Shown here piece by piece: positions 5,646 through 28,690 of a stretch of DNA of 34,240 nt (the stretch's first letter is position 1; every line of letters begins with the position of its first letter). This stretch comes from a virus: the IMG/VR virus record IMGVR_UViG_3300028569_001399, positions 1 to 34,240 of that record; one strand, 5' to 3'. The position numbers were made by a program, and so were the translations under genes. The notes under the pieces are model-generated. The model did no database searches. It saw nothing but the letters and a program-made list of their open reading frames with translations, and was not told where the DNA came from.

Positions 5646-6479
5646 GTGACAACATTTACAACAGAAGATCGATCAAACGCAATGGAAAAACTGACTCCAG
5701 CAACAGAAGTAGCAGATCATGCACAACTAGTGCGTGAAGCACCATATCATCCTGGCTATGAAGATGCTGTGGTAGATCCCGAATATGGACGACCGCTGAG
5801 TGTAGTAATCCGTGACAGCATGCGAGCAAGTGGCAAAAGATTCTGGGCCGGTGACAACATCAGCGAGTTCATTGAATCAGATCAAGAACGTGAACAGTTG
5901 ATCGACGAAGCCACCAGGGCATTTGAGACTGTACTGGATGCCTTGTTGATTGATAGAGAAACAGATCCCAACAGTCGAGGCACGGCCAGGCGCTTGGCCA
6001 AGATGTATTTCAACGAAATCATGGCGGGCAGATATGAGCCTGCCCCAGATTGCACAGCTTTTCCAAATGATTCAGAGGATAGATATGAAGGCATGCTTGT
6101 GGTTCGCAGTGAGCTTCGTAGTATGTGCAGCCATCATCATCAGCCTGTGGCTGGTGTTGCTTATATTGGCATTATTGCTGCCCAAAAATTGATTGGTCTC
6201 AGCAAGTACACTAGAATTGCTCAGTGGTGTGCTCGTCGTGGCACCTTGCAGGAAGAACTGGCCAACGACATTGCCCGAGAGATTGCCCGTGCCACTGATA
6301 GTGAAAACATTGGTGTGTACATACAGGCCACGCATGGTTGCTGTGAAAATCGTGGCATCATGGCACATTCAAGTCTGACACAGACCACGGTGCTACGAGG
6401 TGCGTTTAAAACTGATCCTGGCACCAAGAAAGAGTTCATGGACAATATCAAACTGCAACAGGAGTTTGCACCAAGATGA
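5646..6479 (+). CDS. folE: GTP cyclohydrolase I
   Basis: FolE converts GTP to 7,8-dihydroneopterin triphosphate, the first step to both folate and 7-deazaguanines. The signature region is intact: MCSHHHQPVAGVAYIG (160-175) with zinc ligands Cys161 and His164, LIGLSKYTRI (182-191), and HGCCENRG (230-237) with the second zinc Cys. At 277 residues it is longer than E. coli FolE (222), mainly through an N-terminal extension. I keep the GTG at 5646 because the following residues look like a normal N-terminus. An in-frame ATG at 5682 is an alternative that would give a longer 5' leader from the promoter at 5607-5634. Coupled to the next gene by ATGA. Together with QueD and QueE it feeds the deazaguanine pathway. 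Confidence 0.9.
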   Translation: MTTFTTEDRSNAMEKLTPATEVADHAQLVREAPYHPGYEDAVVDPEYGRPLSVVIRDSMRASGKRFWAGDNISEFIESDQEREQLIDEATRAFETVLDALLIDRETDPNSRGTARRLAKMYFNEIMAGRYEPAPDCTAFPNDSEDRYEGMLVVRSELRSMCSHHHQPVAGVAYIGIIAAQKLIGLSKYTRIAQWCARRGTLQEELANDIAREIARATDSENIGVYIQATHGCCENRGIMAHSSLTQTTVLRGAFKTDPGTKKEFMDNIKLQQEFAPR

Positions 6480-7322: not shown

Positions 7323-9830
7323 ATGCAACGTAAACTGCTTTGGGCTTGTCTTTTTGGCACAGTTATTGTTATCACTGGCTGTGGAGGTGGCGGTGGTGGA
7401 GGTGGTGGTGGTGGAGGTGGCAGTCCATACAACTCGCCTAATCCTTATCTGAGAACTGAAGTTCCTTATGCTACTCCAGTACGAATTGCCACAGTAGATC
7501 CGCTGGCCAATGTGGACTCAAGCACTGGATACAAATACGCAGTCACAGATACCTTTGCAGCCGACATACAAGGCACCGGTGGACAAGATGTGATCATAGC
7601 TGGCCGTATGACACAACACACGACCAATGCGGAATGGGGCAACAACAAAATACACATGATGGGTTGGGAAAATGGCCTCTTGGTGGACAAAACAGCACAG
7701 TGGTTTCCGAATGGTATCAATGAAATCAAGGGCACCGAACCCAGTGTAAAATTTGCAGACTTTTTCAAAACAGGCCGACAAGACATGTTTGTGGCTCCCA
7801 GCACAGACAGTACCAATCTTGGACCTGGGTACTTGTTTACCAATCAAGGCAACAGATTTTTACGCCAGAGTTTTGACCTAAACATATGGTCACACGATTC
7901 GGCTATCGCAGATCTTGATGGCGATAGCTTTAAAGATGTGTTGCTTACAGATTATGGCCCCAATACCACCATGTTGATCAATAACCGCGTGAACAGTTTT
8001 TCAGCACTCACAGACAGTCGTGGTGCAACAGGCGATCTACGTTGGGGCGGCAGTGCAGTGGCAGTGGCCGACTTCTTGGGCAACGGACAAAATCAGTTGA
8101 TCATTACCGACAACACCTGTAACACTGCCAATGCTGGCTGTAACGGGGCAAGCTCAACCAAGATGTACACCTGGACAGTAGACCCAGCGGCCAACAACTT
8201 GCAGTTCAATTTCCACAGCGAGCTCCCAAAACCCAGATTTGACCTGCCCAAGTGGGCTGGCTACGGCTTTGCAGGCAGTCACACTGTACGTGCTGCGGCA
8301 CACGACTTCAACGATGACGGCAGACCCGATGCCATATTGTTCAGCATGCCCAAGAGTGCCAATCCCACACAAGATACCAAATATAGCGAAATACAGTTCC
8401 TGGCCAATCAGGGTGCTGGTACTTTCAACGATGTAACCGACGCCACCTTGATTGGTTATAACAATCGAACCTATGTGACCTACAATCCCAAATTCATAGA
8501 TCTCAACGGTGACGGAAAAATAGACATCTTGGTGTCAGGCACAGACTTCACAGGAAAAAATGACAGCACACAGTTCTTGCTCAAAAGCAACGATGGCAAA
8601 TATGTGGTTGCCTATCAAAACATTCTGACCGATTTTGCCACACAGGTCAACACCATACAAAATAGCACCAACACAGGTAATACTGTCAATCTATTACGAG
8701 GACCCGACGGTAAACTGTATTTGCTGAGTGCAGTTAGCTTTATGAATGGCAACGACCGACAATTGGCCATTTACACAAGCCCATTGGGCAGTCAAAGCAC
8801 TACTACGGCACAGACGGCCGTTGATCTTGTGAGACAAAAATGGCCTTACATGACTGTGGCCCAGGCCAACGACGCCTTGGCTCGAACTGCAACCACATAC
8901 TTTGGTGGCAGGATGATTGATCTGGATGCCTTAATGAACCCGATTGGCAGTTTGAAATTGCCAACCATGCGTGGATTACAATCTTTACAGGGTTTTATTG
9001 CAGGTGTGAATCTTGACAGTGGACAGGTGGTAGGAGTCGATGACCTAAACCGCGGTTTTAATTTAAACATCAAAGGCATGAATATGTCAAGAATGAACAT
9101 GTTTACCATGAACATGGAACACAACGATTCATATGAGATCACTTCACATGCTGAATACTTAGTGGCTGGTCCCAAATACACCGCAGAAGCAGTGAGAATA
9201 GGCACCGAAGACCGCAACAACTACAACGGGCACGGCGGCGGTGGAGATCCTACCATGGTTGGTCGACAATTCACCAACTACACCGTGGGAGTGCCCAATA
9301 TTTGGCGACGTGGGGGTCTCAGCGTTGGCACGCAGTACACTGCACTGAATCAAAATCCTTGGATCAGCATGGGTGGTGCCTGGGGCAGTGTAACCAATTC
9401 ACAGATCATGGACAATGTGGTCACTTATCGCAACAGTGGATTCAGTGTGCAGGGCAGTTTGATGTATGTGACCACCAGCATACAACCTGGCTTGATCACT
9501 GCTGTCAGACCTGCCACAGGAGGCTGGGCCGAAACGGGTTATCGATATACCAACTGGGTGCAACGTCACGGAGACATGGGCATGTATTTTGGTGTCAAAC
9601 CAGTGGTATTTTCTGGCAGTGTTGAGGCTAATTTGCCTACTTCCGTTGACAATGCTGGCAACACAGTTTATACTCGTAAGAACATGAACATACAAAATCA
9701 AACCACTACCTACGTACGAGCTTTGTACACCAATCGTATCAACAAACAATCACAGTATAGAATCAGTGGTATGTTGCTGGACAACGGACAGTATCGGATA
9801 ATGAACGAAATAAAATGGTGGTTGCAATGA
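7323..9830 (+). CDS. FG-GAP/VCBS-repeat outer-membrane lipoprotein
   Basis: An 835-residue exported protein. Its N-terminus is a lipoprotein signal ending in VITGC (lipid-modified Cys20), followed by 13 glycines (21-33), a linker style common in Burkholderiales surface lipoproteins. Calcium-binding repeats of the FG-GAP type follow: DLDGDSFKD (197-205), DFNDDGRPD (328-336) and DLNGDGKID (393-401), pointing to a beta-propeller. The last third has alternating polar/hydrophobic strands with many aromatics, which could be an outer-membrane beta-barrel; this is inference. It has its own consensus promoter and no coupling to the gene before it. A role at the infected-cell surface (adhesion, receptor masking, superinfection exclusion) is plausible. 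A tail adhesin is unlikely because of the lipobox. Confidence 0.78.
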   Translation: MQRKLLWACLFGTVIVITGCGGGGGGGGGGGGGSPYNSPNPYLRTEVPYATPVRIATVDPLANVDSSTGYKYAVTDTFAADIQGTGGQDVIIAGRMTQHTTNAEWGNNKIHMMGWENGLLVDKTAQWFPNGINEIKGTEPSVKFADFFKTGRQDMFVAPSTDSTNLGPGYLFTNQGNRFLRQSFDLNIWSHDSAIADLDGDSFKDVLLTDYGPNTTMLINNRVNSFSALTDSRGATGDLRWGGSAVAVADFLGNGQNQLIITDNTCNTANAGCNGASSTKMYTWTVDPAANNLQFNFHSELPKPRFDLPKWAGYGFAGSHTVRAAAHDFNDDGRPDAILFSMPKSANPTQDTKYSEIQFLANQGAGTFNDVTDATLIGYNNRTYVTYNPKFIDLNGDGKIDILVSGTDFTGKNDSTQFLLKSNDGKYVVAYQNILTDFATQVNTIQNSTNTGNTVNLLRGPDGKLYLLSAVSFMNGNDRQLAIYTSPLGSQSTTTAQTAVDLVRQKWPYMTVAQANDALARTATTYFGGRMIDLDALMNPIGSLKLPTMRGLQSLQGFIAGVNLDSGQVVGVDDLNRGFNLNIKGMNMSRMNMFTMNMEHNDSYEITSHAEYLVAGPKYTAEAVRIGTEDRNNYNGHGGGGDPTMVGRQFTNYTVGVPNIWRRGGLSVGTQYTALNQNPWISMGGAWGSVTNSQIMDNVVTYRNSGFSVQGSLMYVTTSIQPGLITAVRPATGGWAETGYRYTNWVQRHGDMGMYFGVKPVVFSGSVEANLPTSVDNAGNTVYTRKNMNIQNQTTTYVRALYTNRINKQSQYRISGMLLDNGQYRIMNEIKWWLQ
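7383..7421 (+). repeat. GGN tract coding 13 glycines
   Basis: Thirteen consecutive glycine codons (mostly GGT, some GGA and GGC) directly after the lipobox cysteine. The unit is three bases, so slippage would change linker length without shifting frame. Confidence 0.9.
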
Positions 9831-11293: not shown

Positions 11294-11743
11294 ATGGCAA
11301 AGTATTATTCAACAAAACATTACGGACACAACATTGGCTTGAGTGCTGTATTTAGACAGCCCAATGCAGATCACAGCCACTGTCACTTGCTACATGGTTA
11401 CAGTCTAGCGTTCACATTCACATTTGGTTGTGATCAGTTGGACAATAAAAACTGGGCCGTGGACTTTGGCAGTCTCAAAGAACTCAAAGCCTGGTTGGAA
11501 GATCACTTTGATCACAAACTGGCCCTGGATCGTGCAGATCCGCACTTGGCCAAGTTCGAAGAGCTACAAGCATTGGATCTTGTAGAAATCCGAATTTTTG
11601 ATGGTGTGGGTGCAGAAAAATTTGCCGAACATGCATTTCGATTTGCAGACACCCTGATCCGGCAGAAGACCGACAATCGTTGCTATTGTGTTAGAGCGGA
11701 ATGTGCCGAACATGGTGCCAACAGTGCCATCTACGAAGCATAA
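11294..11743 (+). CDS. queD: 6-carboxy-tetrahydropterin synthase
   Basis: QueD converts dihydroneopterin triphosphate to 6-carboxy-tetrahydropterin, the second step towards preQ0. In this 149-residue protein the core is HSHCHLLHGYSLAF (27-40), with Cys30 as the catalytic cysteine and a CxxxHGY motif where most QueD have CxxxHGH. It is followed by WAVDFGSLKELK (54-65), the acidic helix FDHKLALDRADP and the C-terminal pterin-anchoring Glu in AECAEHGANSAIYE. This matches the QueD branch with the spaced HGY motif. It has its own promoter and a strong Shine-Dalgarno, so it is a separate transcription unit start. Partners are FolE (5646) and QueE (19289). Confidence 0.88.
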   Translation: MAKYYSTKHYGHNIGLSAVFRQPNADHSHCHLLHGYSLAFTFTFGCDQLDNKNWAVDFGSLKELKAWLEDHFDHKLALDRADPHLAKFEELQALDLVEIRIFDGVGAEKFAEHAFRFADTLIRQKTDNRCYCVRAECAEHGANSAIYEA

Positions 11744-11782: not shown

Positions 11783-13357
11783 GTGAAAATACAATTACCC
11801 AATGAACTGATATGTTGTTTACCCAAAGTCATTGCTGATCCTGTACGCATAGGTTGTGCCAGCGATGGCGGTTACGTCATACCCCGTGTGCTGTTGGACC
11901 ACTGCGATGACCTACTCAGTTGTGGACTAGGCGAAAACTGGAGTTTTGATCAAGGCTGGCAAAAGCTCAAGCCCGAGGCCAAAATACACATGTATGATGG
12001 TACTGTGAACATCAACAACATGAAAGATTACTTGCGGACACCTTACCAAGATTTTTTTTCAAACAAGGCCACACACTACGTAGAAAACATAGGTCCAGGA
12101 TATACTGCATTCTCCACGGCCATCCAACGTTTAAACAGCAAACGAGTCTTGCTCAAGATGGACATCGAAGGTGGTGAATTCCCTCTCATCGATGAGATTT
12201 TGGCCAATCGAGAGATTTTTCCTGGCATAGTTATCGAAATCCATTTTGCCAATTATCGCAGACAACAATTTGTCGACACAGTAAAAAAACTACAGACCGA
12301 ATATGTGCTGGTACATCTACACGGAAACAACCATACTCCATTGAGCGCCGACAACAGTTGTGATTGTTATGAATTTACTTTTTTACGCCATGACCTCTGC
12401 ACAGACTTTACTGACCGGCCAGAATTTTATCTGCCGGGCATAGATCTCAGCAATGTGCCGGGCATTGATGACTATGAATTTTATTTTGAAAAACCCAGCA
12501 GTGATTTTTCAATCGCGGTGTTGTTGCCCAGTCGAGGTCGCACCCATGAACTCACGGCCAGCGTGACCAGCATCATAGAACATGCTTCTGATCCTGGTGC
12601 CTTGCAACTGATTTTTGGTTTTGACAACGACGATCAAACTGGCCTAGATCATTTTGCGTCTGAGATCCAGCCCTGGCTGGATGAGCATGACGTGTGCTAC
12701 GAAGCTCGGGCCTTTGATCGCATGGGTTATCAAGGTCTCAATCATTACTATAACTTCTTGGCACAGGAGGCGTCGGCTGACTGGTTGTTCATCTGGAACG
12801 ACGATGCTGTGATGGAAACAACGGGATGGGACCAGGTTGTCAAAGCCCGCACTGGCCAATTCAAAGTGCTCAAAGTGCATACCCACAACGAACATCCCTA
12901 CAGCATATTTCCCATAATGCCCCGAGCCTGGTTTGACCAGTTGGGACAATTGAGTAGGCATCACATGATAGATGCCGAAATCAGTCAGATGGCCTACATG
13001 TTAGATATTATGGAGATAGTGGACATCGATGTAACACACAATCAGGTGGAACTGACACAATCCGCCACAGACACATCACAACCCAAGCACAGATTCGAAG
13101 GTAACCCCACTGATCCCAGAGACTTCCACAACCCTATCATAGAACGACAGCGTCGTCAAAACTGTTCAACCTTGGCTGCATATCTACAAGGTCAAGGCGT
13201 GTCAATAGATTTCTGGCAAGCAGTATTGCAGGGCACACAGGATCCCTGGCAACGTCTCAAAGCCAATGACATCAACAATCAGCAATATCAGTTCGATGTG
13301 GTAGCAGACGCTCGGGGCCAGGTGCAGGCCGTACTGCTTACTCAACCGGATCAGTGA
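11783..13357 (+). CDS. FkbM-like methyltransferase fused to GT2-like glycosyltransferase
   Basis: A 524-residue two-domain protein. Residues 1-235 resemble FkbM-type methyltransferases: GCASDGGYVIP (24-34), an SCGLGENWSFD loop and LKMDIEGGEF (124-133), the usual acidic SAM-site segment. Residues 241-430 are a GT2-like domain: FSIAVLLPSRGR (242-253), DNDD (281-284), FIWNDDA (336-342, the metal/nucleotide-sugar acidic motif) and a VHTHNEHPYSIFP segment (365-377). The second domain is paralogous to the free-standing protein at 13979. The start codon is GTG, preceded by a TATAAATA box and no Shine-Dalgarno. It likely transfers a sugar and O-methylates it or the acceptor. The fusion suggests the two steps act on the same product. 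Confidence 0.75.
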   Translation: MKIQLPNELICCLPKVIADPVRIGCASDGGYVIPRVLLDHCDDLLSCGLGENWSFDQGWQKLKPEAKIHMYDGTVNINNMKDYLRTPYQDFFSNKATHYVENIGPGYTAFSTAIQRLNSKRVLLKMDIEGGEFPLIDEILANREIFPGIVIEIHFANYRRQQFVDTVKKLQTEYVLVHLHGNNHTPLSADNSCDCYEFTFLRHDLCTDFTDRPEFYLPGIDLSNVPGIDDYEFYFEKPSSDFSIAVLLPSRGRTHELTASVTSIIEHASDPGALQLIFGFDNDDQTGLDHFASEIQPWLDEHDVCYEARAFDRMGYQGLNHYYNFLAQEASADWLFIWNDDAVMETTGWDQVVKARTGQFKVLKVHTHNEHPYSIFPIMPRAWFDQLGQLSRHHMIDAEISQMAYMLDIMEIVDIDVTHNQVELTQSATDTSQPKHRFEGNPTDPRDFHNPIIERQRRQNCSTLAAYLQGQGVSIDFWQAVLQGTQDPWQRLKANDINNQQYQFDVVADARGQVQAVLLTQPDQ

Positions 13358-13358
13358 C

Positions 13359-13982
13359 ATGAACATTTTCATTACCGGTGGCAACAGCGGCATAGGACTT
13401 GCAACCAAACACATGCTTGAAAAACAACATCGAGTCACCGCTCCGCCACGACAAGATTTTGACCTAACAGATTTAGCACAGATAGATGGCCTGGATCTCA
13501 CAGGATATGATGCCGTGATCAACTGTGCGGGTGATAATCAAGGCGCCTACCTGGGCTGGCACAACAATTCCTGGCAAAATCAACAACGTCATGTGGCTGT
13601 GAACTTCACTGGTCCGTTGTTGCTGGCCAAACAGTATACTCGTCAAAGAGCCTCGGGACAATTTATTTACATTACCAGCGCCAGTGCCGATGATCCCATC
13701 AGCTACACCATATTCATGGTGGGTTCCAAACTAGCTCTGCGACACAGCCTGAACGCTGTAAAACGAGACTATCCAGGAATATTGTTTACAGAGATCGCAC
13801 CTGGAAAAACACAGACCAACATGTTGCAACAGAACTACCAAGGCACACGCACCGATACTGAAATAGCCCAGGAATATGCCAACACTGCACGGCTGGATGC
13901 CGAGCAAGTGGCTCAGACCATTGTGTTATCTCTGGAACTGGGTCTTGATCGCGTGGCTATCAGTGCAAGGCCAGCCAAGTGA
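13359..13982 (+). CDS. Short-chain dehydrogenase-like protein lacking the catalytic Tyr
   Basis: A 207-residue protein with the NAD(P)-binding loop TGGNSGIG (6-13) and INCAG (54-58, the NNAG-like motif). YITSAS (104-109) keeps the catalytic Ser. In the YxxxK position the sequence is MVGSK (120-124), so the proton-donating Tyr is Met120; a Tyr is present four residues earlier (116). Enzymes of this family oxidise or reduce hydroxyl/keto groups; here activity is doubtful or uses another donor. It follows the fusion gene immediately and ends in a GTGA overlap with the next gene. The intact paralog is at 16478. Confidence 0.75.
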   Translation: MNIFITGGNSGIGLATKHMLEKQHRVTAPPRQDFDLTDLAQIDGLDLTGYDAVINCAGDNQGAYLGWHNNSWQNQQRHVAVNFTGPLLLAKQYTRQRASGQFIYITSASADDPISYTIFMVGSKLALRHSLNAVKRDYPGILFTEIAPGKTQTNMLQQNYQGTRTDTEIAQEYANTARLDAEQVAQTIVLSLELGLDRVAISARPAK

Positions 13983-14851
13983 CCAGCCGAGACTACAACA
14001 TTGCCGTGCTCCTGCCCACACACCGGCGCACAGACGCCTTGCGCCGCAGTCTGTTCAGCCTGATTGATCTAGCACACGATCTTGAATCAGTGCAGTTTAG
14101 ATTGGGCATTGACAACAATGACGAAATAGGATTGAATTATTTCATCGACAACATACAACCTGAATTGGATGCCCGAAACATAAACTATGAAGCCTTGGAA
14201 TTCGAACCCTTGGGCTATGCCGGACTCAATCAGTATTTCAATACCCTGGCACGAGATGCCTCGGCCGACTGGTTGTTTGTATGGTGTGATGATGCCATCA
14301 TGCAAACCCAGGATTGGGATCAGCGCATACGCGAGTGCACCGGAGAGTTCAAACTATTAAAAGTGCATACTCACAACGAACATCCCTACAGCATATTCCC
14401 CATCTACCCTGCGGAATGGATTGAAACTCTGGGCTACATCAGCCGGCACCAGATGGGAGATGCAGAAAGCAGCCAGATAGCCTATCTGTTGGATTTGATG
14501 AAGATCATTGAAGTGGATGTCACGCACGATCGTGCCGACCTTACTGGCAACAACCAGGATGAAGCCTACAAAAAACGAGAACTCTTGGAGGGCAATCCCA
14601 ACAATCCTCGAGACCTGCACCATGAATTTTTCATACGCCATCGACATATTGATGCTGAACGCTTGGCAGCATACATGAAATCCAGGAATCTCAGCACTGC
14701 TTGGTACGAAGAAGCAAAGGCCGGCAAAGTGTATGCTTACCAAAAACTAGTGGACAATGATCCCAATGGCCAGTGTGTGCAAATGAAGACCGTAAAAGAT
14801 TCTTCGGGGCAAGTCAGGTTCACAAAAGTTTCCAGGAATAATCAATCATGA
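13979..14851 (+). CDS. GT2-like glycosyltransferase (paralog of the fused domain)
   Basis: A 290-residue protein with YNIAVLLPTHRR (6-17) at the N-terminus, DNND (45-48), DWLFVWCDDA (97-106) and VHTHNEHPYSIFPIYP (129-144). These correspond one by one to the C-terminal half of the protein at 11783, including the long downstream helical part with EGNP.NPRD. It starts with GTG overlapping the preceding stop (GTGA). The two copies probably arose by duplication and could add successive sugars. GT2 family by fold; donor and acceptor unknown. Confidence 0.75.
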   Translation: MTSRDYNIAVLLPTHRRTDALRRSLFSLIDLAHDLESVQFRLGIDNNDEIGLNYFIDNIQPELDARNINYEALEFEPLGYAGLNQYFNTLARDASADWLFVWCDDAIMQTQDWDQRIRECTGEFKLLKVHTHNEHPYSIFPIYPAEWIETLGYISRHQMGDAESSQIAYLLDLMKIIEVDVTHDRADLTGNNQDEAYKKRELLEGNPNNPRDLHHEFFIRHRHIDAERLAAYMKSRNLSTAWYEEAKAGKVYAYQKLVDNDPNGQCVQMKTVKDSSGQVRFTKVSRNNQS

Positions 14852-18791: not shown

Positions 18792-19304
18792 ATGAACAAA
18801 ATATACTATACATGGCGTGATGTTGAAAATCACACACAAGAAATCCTGCGCCAGATCCACGCAGATGCCTGGCGACCCGATTATGTGGTAGGACTCACCC
18901 GTGGAGGTTTGGTTCCAGCCAACTTGATCAGCCAGTATCTTGGTTGTAGGATGGAAACACTGAAAGTCAGCTTGCGAGATGACACAGAATGTGAAAGCAA
19001 CTTGTGGATGGCCGAAGATGCATTTGGACACGAAATGGATCAGCCAAAACGTATTCTCATCGTGGACGACATCAACGATACCGGTGCCACACTGAACTAC
19101 ATTCGTGAGGATTGGCCCAGTGGCTGTTTTCCCGACAATCCACGTTGGACAGAGGTTTGGGGATCAAATGTGCGTGTGGCTGTGCTGGTCGACAACGAAT
19201 CAAGCAAGTCGGAAATTCCTGTGAGTTACAGTGCAGTTGATATAAACAAAGCTGAACAAGATTCATGGATCGTATTTCCTTGGGAGGAATGGTGGCAAAG
19301 ATAA
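18792..19304 (+). CDS. Phosphoribosyltransferase (type I PRTase fold)
   Basis: A 170-residue protein with YVVGLTRGGLVPA (31-43), the usual PRTase strand-loop, and the PRPP-binding motif ILIVDDINDTGAT (88-100). The pattern is closest to xanthine/hypoxanthine-guanine phosphoribosyltransferases. It could salvage a purine or act on a deazapurine base or its analogue; lying directly upstream of queE makes a role in deazaguanine nucleotide formation possible. Its start seems to be leaderless (+1 at the ATG). Its end overlaps queE by 16 bases. Confidence 0.82.
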   Translation: MNKIYYTWRDVENHTQEILRQIHADAWRPDYVVGLTRGGLVPANLISQYLGCRMETLKVSLRDDTECESNLWMAEDAFGHEMDQPKRILIVDDINDTGATLNYIREDWPSGCFPDNPRWTEVWGSNVRVAVLVDNESSKSEIPVSYSAVDINKAEQDSWIVFPWEEWWQR

Positions 19305-20170
19305 AAGTTTCGGAAGTGTTTTACAGTCTACAAGGCGAAGGTCGCTTTGTGGGTGTTCCTAGTGTGTTTTTAAGGACCTATGGTTGCAACTTTACCTGTG
19401 CGGGATTTGGTTGTAAGCCAGGCGAAAAGAGCACAGGTGCCGACGATGTGGCCGAAGTAGTACACTTGTACAACAAGTTTGAAGAACTGCCTTTGGTAGA
19501 AACCGGCTGTGATTCGTATGCAAGTTGGCATCCAGCATTCAAACATCTAAGCCCCACACAGACCACAGAAGAACTGGTAGAACGCATGTTGGGCTTGACC
19601 CCCAACAACATGTGGCAACAGAACAATGGCAACGACGTGCATCTTGTGATCACCGGTGGTGAACCATTGTTGGGCTGGCAACGTGCCTACAGCGAGTTAT
19701 TGAGCCATCCCCGCATGGCCGATCTAAAGAACATAACATTTGAGACCAATGGCACCCAAGAACTACATGCGGATTTCCGTCACTTCCTGCTGGACTGGAC
19801 CTTGAATCCACGCTTGGGCAAGAAAGGTCCTGGAGCATTGACATTCAGTGTCAGTGCCAAGCTCAGTGCTTCAGGTGAATCCTGGGAAGATGCTATCTGT
19901 CCGGACATTGTGATGAGCTATGCTGACATTGGGCACACTTATTTGAAGTTTGTGGTTGAGACCGATGATCACATCGACGAAGCCATACGTGCCACTGACG
20001 CATATCGCCGTGCAGGATTTACGGGTCCTGTGTACTTGATGCCACAGGGCGGAGTAGTACAACCCTATGACAAAAATAAAAAACGCATAGCAGACATCTG
20101 CTGTGCGCAGGGCTGGAACTACAGTCCCAGATTGCACGTTGACCTATGGGGCAATGGATGGGGCAAATAA
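19289..20170 (+). CDS. queE: 7-carboxy-7-deazaguanine synthase-like radical SAM enzyme
   Basis: QueE rearranges 6-carboxy-tetrahydropterin to 7-carboxy-7-deazaguanine. In this 293-residue protein FYSLQGEGRFVGVPSVFLR (11-29) is a hallmark opening. The cluster cysteines are unusual: GCNFTCAGFGC gives Cys33, Cys37 and Cys42 (CX3CX4C) instead of the common CX3CX2C. Another conserved-looking Cys is at 74 in TGCDSYASW. VITGGEPLLGWQ is the SAM-contacting GGEP motif, and FETNGTQ follows. I start it at ATG 19289; a GGGAGG lies just upstream, so GTG 19292 is also possible, and 19265 would be longer. It overlaps the PRTase and the next gene. Confidence 0.85.
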   Translation: MVAKIKVSEVFYSLQGEGRFVGVPSVFLRTYGCNFTCAGFGCKPGEKSTGADDVAEVVHLYNKFEELPLVETGCDSYASWHPAFKHLSPTQTTEELVERMLGLTPNNMWQQNNGNDVHLVITGGEPLLGWQRAYSELLSHPRMADLKNITFETNGTQELHADFRHFLLDWTLNPRLGKKGPGALTFSVSAKLSASGESWEDAICPDIVMSYADIGHTYLKFVVETDDHIDEAIRATDAYRRAGFTGPVYLMPQGGVVQPYDKNKKRIADICCAQGWNYSPRLHVDLWGNGWGK

Positions 20171-23377: not shown

Positions 23378-24388
23378 ATGAAATATGTTCTCGTAGATAC
23401 TGCCAATCTTTTCTTCCGTGCCCGACACGGAGCATTCCGTGCCAGTGATACCTGGGAAAAAGTGGGTTTTGCCCTGCACGTCACGCTGATGGCTGCAAAC
23501 AAAATGGCCCGGCGTTTTGAAGCTGATCACATGGTGTTTGCCTTGGAAGGCCGTAGCTGGCGCAAGGACATGTACAAACCCTACAAAAACAACCGTGCAG
23601 TGGCACGTCAAGCACTGACCGAAGCGGAACTAGAAGAAGACAAAATGTTCTGGGAAACTTATGATAGTCTGACTAAATACTTGAGTGAAAAAACTAACTG
23701 TAGTGTGATACGCTGTGCTACAGCCGAAGGCGACGACATCATAGCTCGCTGGATCGCACTACATCCTCATGATGAACATGTTGTAGTCAGCAGTGATACC
23801 GATTTTGTTCAGCTGGTAGCTGCCAATGTCAAACAGTACAACGGAATCACCGACGAACTAATCACAGTAGAAGGAATATTCGATGCCAAAGGAAAAGCTG
23901 TCATCGATAAGAAGTCTAAAGAACCTAAGCAAGTACCCGATCCAGAATGGCTTCTGTTTGAAAAGTGCATGCGTGGAGACTCATCGGACAATGTGTTCTC
24001 TGCTTACCCCGGTGTCAGAACTAAGGGCACTAAGAACAAGGTTGGCCTACAGGAAGCATTTGAGGACCGCGCCAAACAAGGCTATGCCTGGAACAACTTG
24101 ATGTTGCAACGCTGGATGGATCCCGATGGTGTGGAACACCGTGTGCTGGATGACTATGAACGCAACAGGACCTTGATTGATCTCACCGCACAGCCAACGT
24201 CAGTACGTGACGAAGTAGATCGTTGCATCAGAGAACAAATCAGTCACAAGGATGTGGGCCAAGTGGGTGTGCGATTCATGCAGTTCTGTGGCAAGTATGA
24301 ACTGAACAAGTGTTCTGAATCAGCTGACAGTTTTGGTCGATGGATGAATGAAACATACAAAGGAGTACTCGATGACGTTAGTAGCTAA
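23378..24388 (+). CDS. rnh: T4-type RNase H / 5'-3' exonuclease
   Basis: A 336-residue protein (T4 RNase H has 305). VDTANLFFRARHG (6-18) has the first metal Asp7; EGDD (117-120) and SSDTDF (138-143) are the acidic clusters of the FEN-1/RNase H family; GDSSDNVFSAYPGV (200-213) is the helix-3-turn-helix DNA-binding element. In T4 this enzyme removes RNA primers during lagging-strand synthesis. No downstream Met could serve as start without losing the first motif, so the ATG at 23378 is firm even though the promoter predicts a leaderless message. The 3' end overlaps the next gene by 17 bases. Confidence 0.88.
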   Translation: MKYVLVDTANLFFRARHGAFRASDTWEKVGFALHVTLMAANKMARRFEADHMVFALEGRSWRKDMYKPYKNNRAVARQALTEAELEEDKMFWETYDSLTKYLSEKTNCSVIRCATAEGDDIIARWIALHPHDEHVVVSSDTDFVQLVAANVKQYNGITDELITVEGIFDAKGKAVIDKKSKEPKQVPDPEWLLFEKCMRGDSSDNVFSAYPGVRTKGTKNKVGLQEAFEDRAKQGYAWNNLMLQRWMDPDGVEHRVLDDYERNRTLIDLTAQPTSVRDEVDRCIREQISHKDVGQVGVRFMQFCGKYELNKCSESADSFGRWMNETYKGVLDDVSS

Positions 24389-25740: not shown

Positions 25741-25815
25741 GGGCCTTTAGCTTAATGGTAAAGCAAACGACTCATAATCGTTGGAGTCTAAGTTCAATTC
25801 TTAGAAGGCCCACCA
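25741..25815 (+). tRNA. tRNA with CAT anticodon (Ile2-like, or elongator Met)
   Basis: A 75-base cloverleaf: a 7-bp acceptor of GGGCCTT with AAGGCCC, a D arm, the anticodon stem AACGA/TCGTT with loop CTCATAA (anticodon 25773-25775), a T arm CTAAG/CTTAG and encoded CCA. C4-G69 and C5-G68 and the stem bases CGA/TCG around the loop resemble isoleucine tRNA2, whose C34 is changed to lysidine so that it reads AUA. Methionine elongator tRNA is the alternative. G1-C72 rules out initiator tRNA. Confidence 0.9.
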
Positions 25816-25831: not shown

Positions 25832-26002
25832 ATGCAACAGGCCAAACTACCCTTAGAGCACTATTATTATTCTGAAGACGAATGGAACCGGTTGGGGTGT
25901 AGTCCACTACCGTCCGAACGTGACCGAGCCCAGCAACGTAAAAATGTCATGGCACGAGGCAATCCTAGCACAGACGGCAAAAACATTAAAGGATACAACT
26001 AG
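25832..26002 (+). CDS. Small hydrophilic hypothetical protein
   Basis: An open frame of 56 codons, with HYYYSEDEWNRLG (10-22), a Pro/Arg middle and GNPSTDGKN near the end. It follows a TAAATA box and has no clear Shine-Dalgarno. The segment PLPSERDRAQQRKNV suggests a compact helix; no family recognised. It ends one base before the next ATG, which favours a real, coupled gene. Confidence 0.5.
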   Translation: MQQAKLPLEHYYYSEDEWNRLGCSPLPSERDRAQQRKNVMARGNPSTDGKNIKGYN

Positions 26003-26003
26003 C

Positions 26004-26087
26004 ATGGGCATGGTAGCTGTAATTTTCCTAGTTGGTATTTTCTTGTATGTGATGATCTTGTTGAAAGAATGGACCGACAATGAGTAA
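26004..26087 (+). CDS. 27-residue single-span membrane peptide
   Basis: A small open frame coding a hydrophobic helix (VAVIFLVGIFLYVMILL, residues 4-20) followed by a charged tail KEWTDNE. It begins one base after the preceding stop. Such mini-proteins occur in phages as membrane effectors; at this length chance cannot be excluded. Confidence 0.4.
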   Translation: MGMVAVIFLVGIFLYVMILLKEWTDNE

Positions 26088-26127
26088 GATTTCGCTGTTA
26101 GATCAAACAGCGTGGTAGGACGGGTCT

Positions 26128-26235
26128 ATGAATAAAATACAAGTTTTCACACTGGGCACAGGACTTGTAATCATGTGGCTTCTGTATCGATTTAGTTTAG
26201 AAGTATGGTGCTGGGCCTTCGGCTTGATATACTAG
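26128..26235 (+). CDS. 35-residue membrane peptide
   Basis: ATG at 26128, stop TAG at 26233. The sequence has a hydrophobic segment (LGTGLVIMWLLY, 9-20) and a second aromatic one (VWCWAFGLIY, 26-35). A GGACGGG lies upstream at usable spacing. No homology recognised. It stops just before the tmRNA promoter. Confidence 0.38.
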   Translation: MNKIQVFTLGTGLVIMWLLYRFSLEVWCWAFGLIY

Positions 26236-26236
26236 G

Positions 26237-26265
26237 TTGACCAATAAATAGGTGTGTCGTATAAT
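26237..26265 (+). promoter_or_regulatory. Sigma70 promoter for the permuted tmRNA
   Basis: TTGACC at 26237-26242, a 17-base spacer and TATAAT at 26260-26265. Predicted +1 is about 26272. An ATAAATA box (26244-26250) lies within the spacer. Confidence 0.8.
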
Positions 26266-26330
26266 AACGATATTGTTGTAATTCCTTCTAAACGAAGGCG
26301 CTGTGGACCCGGGTGCAACTCCCGGCATCT

Positions 26331-26400
26331 CCACCGGAGCATATTGTATTAAGGCACGCTGGACCCTAAGATTAAACTTCCAGTCAGTGTGCTCCGGTGG
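26331..26400 (+). repeat. 11-bp perfect inverted repeat bounding the tmRNA spacer
   Basis: CCACCGGAGCA (26331-26341) and TGCTCCGGTGG (26390-26400) are exact reverse complements. The arms include the 3' end of the acceptor piece and the first bases of the coding piece, so the precursor can form either this long hairpin or the mature acceptor stem. It is probably a processing element. Confidence 0.9.
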
Positions 26401-26483
26401 GGATGAATTAGGATCGACATGGTGAGCTAGTGCGGACGGCAACACAGTAGGCGATGACTGTAAATCAAGCAACTCGATTAAAT

Positions 26484-26525
26484 GCAAACGCATCTAATGA
26501 CGAGACCTTTGCCTTAGCGGCATGA
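26484..26525 (+). other. tmRNA tag-peptide reading frame
   Basis: GCA resume codon followed by codons giving ANASNDETFALAA and a TGA stop. The end LAA is the degradation signal recognised by ClpXP-type proteases. There is no start codon, as expected for a tmRNA. Confidence 0.93.
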
Positions 26526-26563
26526 TCTCCGGGGCAACTATGCCTTGTTACCCAAACTAGTCT

Positions 26564-26590
26564 AAAAAGCCTGAGAAATCAGGCTTTTTT
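26564..26590 (+). terminator. Intrinsic terminator of the tmRNA
   Basis: An 11-bp stem AAAAAGCCTGA/TCAGGCTTTTT closed by a GAAA tetraloop and followed by a run of T. It lies after the pseudoknot-like region of the coding piece. Confidence 0.92.
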
Positions 26591-26611
26591 GTGACCACTT
26601 AGTAAAAATCA

Positions 26612-26638
26612 CTAAATAAAAAGTTGGACGGTCGTCCA
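26612..26638 (+). promoter_or_regulatory. CTAAATA box and small hairpin in the porin leader
   Basis: CTAAATA (26612-26618) could be a late promoter with +1 near 26624, or the -10 (TAAATA) of a weak sigma70 promoter with TTGTGA at 26589. Then TGGACG-GT-CGTCCA (26625-26638) is a 6-bp inverted repeat at the predicted 5' end of the message, a candidate stabilising hairpin or operator. The porin Shine-Dalgarno (AAAGGA) follows. Confidence 0.5.
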
Positions 26639-26665
26639 GCATTCTTTTAAAGGAAAATCTCAAGC

Positions 26666-27835
26666 ATGAAAAAATTATTATTAGCATTGGCCTTGTCCGC
26701 TGCCTTTACAGGAGCAACACAAGCGCAATCTAGCGTCAGCGTGTATGGCGTTATGGATGGATCATACACACAGGCCGAAAACTCAAGCAAAACCACAGCC
26801 AGTGGATCTGTCACAGATACAAAATCTCGCAACACTGTCAACGGTGATGGCGCTCTCAGTACCAGCCGCCTTGGTTTCAGAGGCAATGAGGATTTGGGCG
26901 GTGGCAAGAGTGCTCAATTCGTCCTGGAATATGACTTGATCAACATCGGCAATGGTGGCAATGGTACGGATACCGGCCTAGCGCAGTCTTCCAACACCAA
27001 TGCCAGAACTGAAGGTTTGGGTGCTCGCTATTCTTGGATTGGCATCACAGACAAGAACTTGGGAGCATTGCGCATTGGTCGTCAAGAGTCACCCATGCAC
27101 GGTGCCTTTATAAACGGCTTGGCTGGACGAGGAAACAACATACCGGGTTCAATTTTTTCCGGTGGTTCATCTAATGCCAACGTGATTTCAGCAGGCGTTC
27201 GTGCCTATGAAGTTTTTGTGGATCAAGCCATCACATATGTGGCACCATCCATATCAGGATTTGGTGCTCAAGTTCAGTATTCACAAAATGCCTACTCCGC
27301 TAACCAGTCAACATCACGTTCTGGCTTTCAACAAGCTGGAGCAAGCGTAAGTTATACAGGTATCAAGAACTTGTCAGTGGCACTTGGCTTTCAGCAAGAT
27401 AATGCCGTGGTTGCAAATACATCAAATGCCAAACGTGTGGTAAACACTTTGTCAGCCAACTACAACTTTGGTCCAGTCACAGCATTTGGTATATATTCTA
27501 CTCATAAAAATACCAATCTGGCCACGGCGGCAGTGACACGTGATCAAAAAGCCACTGAACTTGGCCTGCGTGCACCAGTCAACAAGGCTGTGGAAGTTTG
27601 GGCCAGTACATTCATAGGCACCAAGACAGAAAGCACAAACAGTGCTACGCTGGCAGCAACCACCACTGGAAATGCAGACTTGAAAGGTTACCAAGTAGGC
27701 ACACAGTACAACTTTAGCAACCGCACCACTGCGTATGCAATTTATGGTACTCAAGAGATCACAGGTAAAGCTGCTGCTACCAATACCCAGATCAGTTCCA
27801 CTGGTTACGCACTTGGCTTGCGCCACATGTTTTAA
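26666..27835 (+). CDS. Outer-membrane trimeric porin (Burkholderiales type)
   Basis: A 389-residue porin. A signal peptide of about 21 residues (MKKLLLALALSAAFTG, ending TQA) is followed by the first strand SVSVYGVMDGSY. SRLGFRGNEDLGGGKSAQF (67-85) is the family hallmark segment, LGALRIGRQ leads to the constriction loop region, and the C-terminus is GLRHMF with the terminal Phe used for BAM-mediated assembly. Length and motifs are those of Gram-negative porins of betaproteobacteria. A phage copy may replace the host porin after infection, change nutrient uptake or hide the receptor from competing phages; the lambdoid phage PA-2 lc porin is a precedent. Strong Shine-Dalgarno, own terminator. 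No frameshift or truncation. Confidence 0.92.
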   Translation: MKKLLLALALSAAFTGATQAQSSVSVYGVMDGSYTQAENSSKTTASGSVTDTKSRNTVNGDGALSTSRLGFRGNEDLGGGKSAQFVLEYDLINIGNGGNGTDTGLAQSSNTNARTEGLGARYSWIGITDKNLGALRIGRQESPMHGAFINGLAGRGNNIPGSIFSGGSSNANVISAGVRAYEVFVDQAITYVAPSISGFGAQVQYSQNAYSANQSTSRSGFQQAGASVSYTGIKNLSVALGFQQDNAVVANTSNAKRVVNTLSANYNFGPVTAFGIYSTHKNTNLATAAVTRDQKATELGLRAPVNKAVEVWASTFIGTKTESTNSATLAATTTGNADLKGYQVGTQYNFSNRTTAYAIYGTQEITGKAAATNTQISSTGYALGLRHMF

Positions 27836-27853
27836 TAGTTTTTGTTAGAATCG

Positions 27854-27878
27854 AAAAAGCTCCTCAGGGGGCTTTTTT
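27854..27878 (+). terminator. Intrinsic terminator after the porin
   Basis: A stem AAAAAGCTCC/GGGGGCTTTTT (one T-G pair) with loop TCAG, followed by T residues, 18 bases after the porin stop. Confidence 0.9.
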
Positions 27879-27895
27879 GTTGACTAAGTACTCCT

Positions 27896-28690
27896 ATGAT
27901 TGATATTGTCACTGTGGTGTTTGAATCAGAATTACAAGTTCTACGACAACAGGCACGCAGTTTGGCGCTTTTTGTAAAACGCATTGACAGCATTGTGGTG
28001 GTTGTAAATCAAGACCAGGCTTGCCGCATAGACACCAGGTGGTGGGGCATGCATCAACAAAAAGTCACTGTGATGCATCGCAATCTTTTTGGCTCAAGTT
28101 GGTCACCAAATGGATGGGTGAGTCAACAAGCTCTGAAATTATTGGCCGTCAGCCAATGTGCCAGTGAATGGGCAGTGATCCTGGATGCCAAAACCATATG
28201 TGTCCAAGATTTTGACTTGCATGAAATCCGACCCGCGGTAGGGGCGTTGGACATTAATCCTGTGTTTCAACCCAGCTGTGACATAGCCAATGCCTTGTTT
28301 GGTATTAATCTACAACAACAATTAGGGCCCGGGGGTGTGCCTTTTGTAATGAATACTCAGCAAGCACGTGACATGATTGCCTGGATTGAACGTCATACGG
28401 GTCAATCTTTCGCGGAATGGTTTCAACAACAGGGTCGACTGACTGAGTTTATCTTGTATTCGGCTTGGATACAGTATCGCACTGGATCATTGAATACCAT
28501 ATACAACACAGAAACCACCAAAATAATTCCTGTGAATGTTTGTCACAGCGACGTGGCCCAATTTGAACAAAAACTATCTCACATGCCTGCAGCCTCCACG
28601 GTCAGCATACACAGAAACGCTTGGACACAACTCACTGAAGATCAGCAAAAAAAATACCGAGATTTTTTAGCAATCCGAGGTCTGACTTGA
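27896..28690 (+). CDS. DUF6492-like putative glycosyltransferase
   Basis: A 264-residue protein whose start (DIVTVVFESELQVLRQQARS, 3-22) and the WVSQQALKLLAV and WAVILDAKTI segments match my memory of DUF6492, a GT-A-like family. The LDAKT segment is where a DxD-type motif would be. The minus-strand protein at 31737 has a similar arrangement ([13 protein letters not shown] followed by LMHDPDTF), so the window has two related members. Function inferred: sugar transfer in glycan synthesis. Shine-Dalgarno weak; overlaps the next gene at a TTGA. Confidence 0.6.
   Translation: MIDIVTVVFESELQVLRQQARSLALFVKRIDSIVVVVNQDQACRIDTRWWGMHQQKVTVMHRNLFGSSWSPNGWVSQQALKLLAVSQCASEWAVILDAKTICVQDFDLHEIRPAVGALDINPVFQPSCDIANALFGINLQQQLGPGGVPFVMNTQQARDMIAWIERHTGQSFAEWFQQQGRLTEFILYSAWIQYRTGSLNTIYNTETTKIIPVNVCHSDVAQFEQKLSHMPAASTVSIHRNAWTQLTEDQQKKYRDFLAIRGLT

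Follow-up and report, generated by a model that had tools for sequence, protein, structure and literature searches.

In bacteria, tmRNA releases stuck ribosomes and marks their unfinished proteins with a tag for destruction. Two-piece forms have already been described in phages, for example in Melnitz, with 53 reported from 18,146 phage genomes (PMC9004378), and a tmRNA database of 2025 holds 79 phage sequences (PMC11915505). The type of gene described here, located in a 34,240-nucleotide IMG/VR viral record (the window), is therefore already known. In Melnitz and other aquatic phages (PMC9004378), as in the window, the permuted tmRNA gene of a T4-like myophage is complete, with an intact tag frame and an early-type promoter. 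However, the Melnitz tmRNA is of the alphaproteobacterial type and under a glutamine riboswitch, whereas that of the window is of the betaproteobacterial type, with its own promoter, its own terminator and a porin gene behind it; at the gathering threshold Rfam gives five matches in the window, none of them a riboswitch. The tmRNAs of mycobacteriophages Bxz1 and Wildcat are phage-carried like that of the window and are not described as permuted, while mycobacteriophage DS6A, unlike the window, is reported there with a tRNA-like domain only, lacking a tag (PMC4131195). A tmRNA and Clp genes occur in one genome in the Sinorhizobium jumbo phage AP-J-162 (PMC11242549), as in some relatives of the window, and Bacillus phage G combines a tmRNA (PMC4131195) with a clpX gene matched here. 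Both belong to different phage groups, and the accessible portions of the two papers do not link these genes into one pathway (PMC11242549, PMC4131195).

Among bacteria, the betaproteobacterial permuted tmRNAs (RF01850; L353 and L358-L365) share with the window the gene order, the pairing scheme, the pseudoknot and a full-length match to the model. However, they score 161 to 331 bits against 123 bits for the window, and their tags follow ANDE.(F/Y)A(L/I/M)AA without the ANAS extension of the window. Other Burkholderiales tmRNAs in the sample are mostly one-piece; for this comparison the order-level sample was informative, and sampling by class and phylum yielded few of the permuted form. One Burkholderiales genome (G986, locus L366) carries a permuted tmRNA of 104 bits for which ARAGORN predicts the tag GNQPSNLQVMQQFDVPTPANGDQYLNVA, perhaps borne by a prophage or resulting from a mis-called frame.

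A complete circularly permuted tmRNA gene of the betaproteobacterial type occupies positions 26,237-26,590 of the window, with the following layout:

26237..26265, + strand: sigma-70-type promoter, TTGACC-17 nt-TATAAT (11 of 12 consensus matches)
26274..26335, + strand: 3' half of the tRNA-like domain, the upstream piece (ARAGORN, Rfam models)
26275-26278, + strand: P2 strand GTTG, within the upstream piece
26309-26313 / 26321-26325, + strand: T arm CCGGG / CCCGG
26326-26332, + strand: acceptor 3' strand CATCTCC
26333-26335, + strand: A73-C74-C75; the final A of CCA is not encoded
26336..26398, + strand: intervening segment, predicted to be removed; with its flanks a long hairpin (GGAGCA...TGCTCC, ACC:GGT)
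26399..26483, + strand: 5' half of the tRNA-like domain, with the P2 partner and a hairpin (Rfam models)
26399-26405, + strand: acceptor 5' strand GGGGATG
26414-26418, + strand: TCGAC, within the 5' half of the tRNA-like domain
26440-26443, + strand: P2 partner CAAC, followed by the hairpin ACAGT/ACTGT
26484..26525, + strand: tag frame ANASNDETFALAA (26484-26522), then TGA (26523-26525) (ARAGORN, Rfam)
26530..26561, + strand: pseudoknot, read from the sequence and aligning with the beta_tmRNA model
26531-26536 / 26541-26546, + strand: pseudoknot stem 1, GGGGCA / TGCCTT
26537-26540 / 26558-26561, + strand: pseudoknot stem 2, ACTA / TAGT
26564..26590, + strand: intrinsic terminator, 11-bp stem and T run (fold -14.6 kcal/mol, z -4.8)

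An earlier note, made from the letters alone, had read this region as a phage-encoded permuted tmRNA and proposed a covariance-model search including permuted forms. In the Rfam search both relevant models are matched over their full length, RF04321 (tmRNA_permuted) at 26274-26525 with 124 bits (E 4.8e-24, model 1-213 of 213; curated cut-off 47 bits) and RF01850 (beta_tmRNA) at 26223-26590 with 123.4 bits (E 2.2e-37, model 1-331 of 331; cut-off 84 bits), and ARAGORN independently calls a tmRNA* with the same tag. Together with the collinearity described below, these matches support the reading. The 3' acceptor half lies upstream of the 5' half with 66 nt between them, and the pairing that the note had proposed between CATCTCC and GGGGATG holds at 7 of 7 positions. 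The tag frame ending in TGA is likewise present as described; it opens with the resume codon GCA (Ala, 26484-26486), and the tag ends in a degron-like FALAA. The promoter and terminator said to bracket the gene were both recovered, with a start site predicted 6-8 nt past the promoter (around 26272), just ahead of the first tmRNA helix, and with the last RF01850 helix coinciding with the terminator. The terminator scan missed the latter, an omission probably due to the overlap of its stem with the T tract; the hairpin at 26564-26590 is revealed by folding.

The stretch 26330-26408, comprising the intervening segment and its flanks, folds at -35.1 kcal/mol (z -5.2), a value reached by none of 200 shuffled sequences, and the intervening hairpin extends the acceptor helix. 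The tmRNA is under structural selection. Across 44 unique phage relatives, pairing is kept at acceptor positions 4, 5 and 6 although each occurs as three or four pair types, and the G3·U70 pair, the alanine identity element, varies neither in the window nor in any of the 44. These relatives were extracted on condition of an intact 7-bp acceptor stem, so the acceptor counts are selected; the T stem, which pairs in all 44 and has two-sided changes at four of its five pairs, provides a fairer count, and neither it nor the hairpin counts carry this selection. The messenger-half hairpin ACAGT/ACTGT covaries as well (ACGGT/ACCGT, AGGAT/ATCCT, AGAGT/ACTCT and ACGAG/CTCGT in relatives), except in L129 and L222, where the same search gives only 3 of 6 pairs, suggesting a rearranged hairpin. 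Stems equivalent to the pseudoknot are readable in relatives with long tags (see below). The D loop of the window is AGGATCGAC instead of the usual GGTTTCGAC and its T loop TGCAA instead of TTCGA, deviations that are common to the window and its near relatives L211 and L222.

The virus infects freshwater bacteria, and the analysis is a sequence comparison on metagenomic records whose completeness is not established. Gene by gene and from end to end, the window is collinear with positions 166,662-202,748 of a 337,119-bp viral record (G001), mostly at 60-95% amino-acid identity; this record is a relative of the window and not its own genome, and it carries an identical tag at the same place (L222). 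This collinearity and the conserved position show that the window is not a host chimera, a possibility that the earlier note had named as a ground for rejecting its reading. Its label 'T4-like' is right at the capsid level for the relatives, as the Gp23 family is matched at 325-469 bits in seven of 12 long records. The tmRNA gene has these neighbours:

23378..24388, + strand: phage 5'-3' exonuclease/RNase H-type gene, the synteny anchor
25741..25815, + strand: tRNA with a CAT anticodon, upstream of the tmRNA as in many relatives
26610..26618, + strand: late-promoter-like CACTAAATA, behind the tmRNA terminator and upstream of the porin gene
26666..27835, + strand: porin gene, 389 aa with a signal peptide (PF13609 Porin_4, 124.7 bits)

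Of the exonuclease loci, 34 extend 4 kb or more downstream, and ARAGORN finds a tmRNA at the same position in 10 of them; this is a lower bound, as the program undercounts (it missed L135, for example). The exonuclease is 51.6% identical to that of the Pseudomonas jumbo phage PA5oct. A blastn search with window positions 26000-27900 retrieved no relative among cultured phages.

Relatives present three kinds of tag at the same locus: tags like that of the window (ANASNDE[TV][FY]ALAA), ANDEQFALAA, and long tags of 28, 29 or 31 residues. The pattern of the window was found in 26 viral stretches, 18 of which are called as tmRNA by ARAGORN with a tag of this form. The long tags have the form A(N/K/T)(A/T)S(K/T)GEVTV...KFSAR...LAV or FAV, with N for S in L126; they lack the NDE motif and end in AV, not AA. 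They occur at 74 loci and represent 39 different DNA versions, some loci being overlapping fetches of one contig, and comprise L072, L126, L128, L132, L135, L152, L164, L167 and most of L228-L312, across which the consensus is A..S.GEVTVSGK..KFSAR....LAV/FAV. They differ in length by complete codons, with the frame closed in every case. When the part that served as search pattern is left aside, pN/pS of the 29-residue tags is 0.65 in the tag frame versus 0.86 and 1.30 in the two others, and among the eight 31-residue versions the frames are indistinguishable by this measure; conservation thus supports the long frame, with moderate further support from the substitution pattern.

In the collections searched, both the ANASNDE tags and the long tags were found only in viral contigs. 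In 84,980 bacterial and archaeal species (one genome each), an exact but degenerate pattern covering ANASNDE and nearly all long starts, the long tags being sought by a DNA pattern, gave ten hits, none of them a tmRNA according to ARAGORN. Cultured phages yielded no long-tag match, only 41 nt in Stenotrophomonas phages and 80 nt in one Pseudomonas phage. Phylogenetic comparison shows that tags and tmRNA bodies have different histories, the tag having been swapped repeatedly in this lineage. A tree that unites all long tags in one clade is rejected (AU p 0.026), at least five switches between AV and AA endings are needed on the tmRNA tree, and near-identical flanks surround a long tag in L141 but ANDEQFALAA in L143. 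The simplest cause of this switching would be recombination of the messenger half. As the first tmRNA tree was midpoint-rooted, no ancestral tag is claimed; a grouping of all phage members apart from the others is compatible with the data (p 0.31), yet not demonstrated.

Tags of a similar length are also predicted elsewhere. ARAGORN assigns tags of about 20-31 residues to one-piece tmRNAs on seven viral contigs (L006, L007, L030, L063, L067, L108 and L117), so long tags are perhaps more general in phages. In addition, a 159,514-bp contig (L008) carries a permuted tmRNA with the tag VAANDDSYTVRIAA, and the Stenotrophomonas phage records related to it mostly have no annotation at the place of the tmRNA.

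Some partners of tmRNA are encoded by the relatives themselves. In the 12 long related viral records, no match was found to SmpB (PF01668) and SspB is absent, so SmpB would presumably be supplied by the host. ClpX and ClpP occur together in the same three of these records (468-490 and 217-270 bits, respectively), the only ones to pass the NCBI equivalog cut-off of 370.75 bits for ClpX: G001 (337 kb, with the tag of the window; L380, L385), G002 (344 kb, long tag; L379, L384) and G007 (158 kb, long tag; L381, L383). Both records above 300 kb thus encode the pair. The other nine are shorter or fragments, one of them (G012) having no tmRNA in the stretch available, and the absence of ClpXP there means little; the window fragment itself has neither clpX nor clpP. 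The G001 ClpX retains Walker A, the GYVG pore loop and an N-domain that binds zinc, and its ClpP retains the Ser/His/Asp motifs (GQACSMG, MIHQP, ERDFFM), while the tag-reading RKH loop of ClpX is altered to RKN in G001 and RKQ in G002. clpX is common in jumbo phages, among them PA5oct, phage G and Atu_ph07, and the last is listed without a tmRNA (PMC11242549); the co-occurrence of tmRNA and ClpXP is therefore suggestive, not diagnostic. The earlier note had supposed that the phage rescues stalled ribosomes itself, which is correct only in part: SmpB was not found in the 12 relatives, whereas ClpX and ClpP are phage-encoded in the largest of them.

These data are very probably best explained by a functional, phage-owned two-piece tmRNA that would tag nonstop proteins for ClpXP by way of host SmpB and alanyl-tRNA synthetase. 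The sigma-70-type promoter would give one precursor with the 3' tRNA half ahead of the messenger half, from which host RNase P and 3' nucleases would excise the intervening hairpin, leaving two mature RNAs held by the acceptor and P2 helices. Because the gene encodes ACC and then G at its 3' end, the terminal A of CCA has to be added, presumably by a host enzyme, and alanyl-tRNA synthetase would charge the RNA through G3-U70. During infection, host SmpB would then deliver it to ribosomes halted on broken mRNAs, where ANASNDETFALAA would be appended to the stalled protein. By comparison with known tags, the NDE...FALAA end corresponds to a normal ClpX degron, so tagged fragments should reach ClpXP, either that of the host or, in relatives such as G001, that of the phage. 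A bolder proposal, which we advance only tentatively and consider more doubtful than probable, is that these large phages run their own tag-and-destroy pathway, in which a phage tmRNA with exchangeable phage tags, either short with FALAA ends or long with LAV/FAV ends, feeds phage ClpXP; the host would lend only SmpB and the enzymes for charging and processing, and the phage would decide the fate of proteins from ribosomes that stall during infection.

Since ssrA is a frequent integration site and fragments of it occur in prophages (PMC9004378), the gene might alternatively be a functionless host tmRNA, acquired by imprecise prophage excision or by recombination at the ssrA site. This is highly improbable and largely refuted, as the relatives have a T4-like capsid, the gene occupies the same place in many contigs with its own promoter and terminator, its stems covary while the tag frame is kept, and the tags were not found in bacterial tmRNAs. 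The phage RNA could instead titrate host SmpB or displace the host tmRNA and so block trans-translation, a decoy role proposed for the tRNA-like-domain-only tmRNA of DS6A; an inhibitory effect of such a molecule on tmRNA is cited in PMC4131195. As no SmpB was found in the long relatives, the phage RNA would have to compete for that of the host. However, a pure decoy needs no tag, whereas the frame in the window is complete and ends in a degron-like LAA, tags in relatives vary in length by whole codons only, and the pseudoknot and messenger hairpin are kept, which makes this role very unlikely.

A further reading refines, more than it contradicts, the functional tmRNA favored here: the phage would choose a tag leading to a different fate, such as slower, SspB-independent or phage-ClpX-specific degradation. 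It is clearest for the long LAV/FAV tags, whose conservation without NDE, rejection as a single clade and repeated changes of ending all point in this direction, as does the altered RKH loop of ClpX in the two largest phages. In E. coli reporters, AAV-ending tags are degraded more slowly than LAA- or LVA-ending ones, and the LAV/FAV tags may accordingly be weaker degrons. On the other hand, selection on the long frame is moderate in the 29-residue tags and not discernible in the 31-residue ones, and the tag of the window itself is ordinary at its C end and canonical-looking, so that we regard this reading as possible, although rather less than evenly probable. The lineage constitutes a natural experiment on the purpose of phage tmRNAs, which may be ribosome rescue, recycling of host proteins or re-routing of tagged proteins to a phage protease: the same tmRNA body comes with a canonical degron or with a long, differently ending tag, and the largest phages add ClpX and ClpP. 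In the open-access literature, which includes few subscription journals and preprints, we found neither a beta-type phage lineage, tag switching or long AV-ended tags, nor a proposal of phage tmRNA and phage ClpXP acting together. As far as searched, the viral-only tags, the switching between short LAA and long LAV/FAV tags, and the presence of ClpX and ClpP in three of 12 long records, none of which was found to encode SmpB, therefore appear to be new.

The slot behind the tmRNA is variable. In dozens of relatives it encodes differing mature outer-membrane proteins behind similar signal peptides: porin-type in the window, L209, L222, L240 and L247, a TorF-family barrel in L129 (PF09694, 155.6 bits) with the same protein type in L202 and L218, and small barrel-like proteins of no confident family in L139 and L251 (weakly in L208). 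Some phages with 31-residue tags have an AAA ATPase there (L260). One might guess that such a swappable outer-membrane protein alters the adsorption of competing phages. The porin of the window has no match in cultured phages, and a pattern derived from it gave no hit in viral contigs, although tblastn on the fetched loci did find divergent copies. It has only distant plasmid matches, and among those listed all genera are betaproteobacterial (Burkholderia, Paraburkholderia, Caballeronia, Cupriavidus, Variovorax, Hydrogenophaga and others), suggesting that the host is probably a betaproteobacterium of the Burkholderiales, although a borrowed porin need not stem from the present host.

CTAAATA lies upstream of ORFs in G001 15 times versus 1.2 expected, and ATAAATA-type octamers are likewise enriched. 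These motifs (G001, L391-L407; 26610-26618 and 25817-25823 in the window) resemble T4 late promoters. Genes for GTP cyclohydrolase I, a QueD-like and a QueE-like protein were identified at 5646-6479, 11294-11743 and 19265-20170, respectively, and a GDSGGFQ-motif protein at 3-1277 is reminiscent of tRNA-guanine transglycosylase, with no family match; this set could possibly serve 7-deazaguanine DNA modification. An 835-aa FG-GAP-repeat protein (7323-9830), with a lipoprotein-like signal followed by a glycine run, is 47% identical in G001, where its neighbors are far closer. Finally, two neighboring ORFs of the window (11783-13357 and 13979-14851) are both about 50% identical to a single G001 gene (178,663-179,469), suggesting a local duplication in the window.
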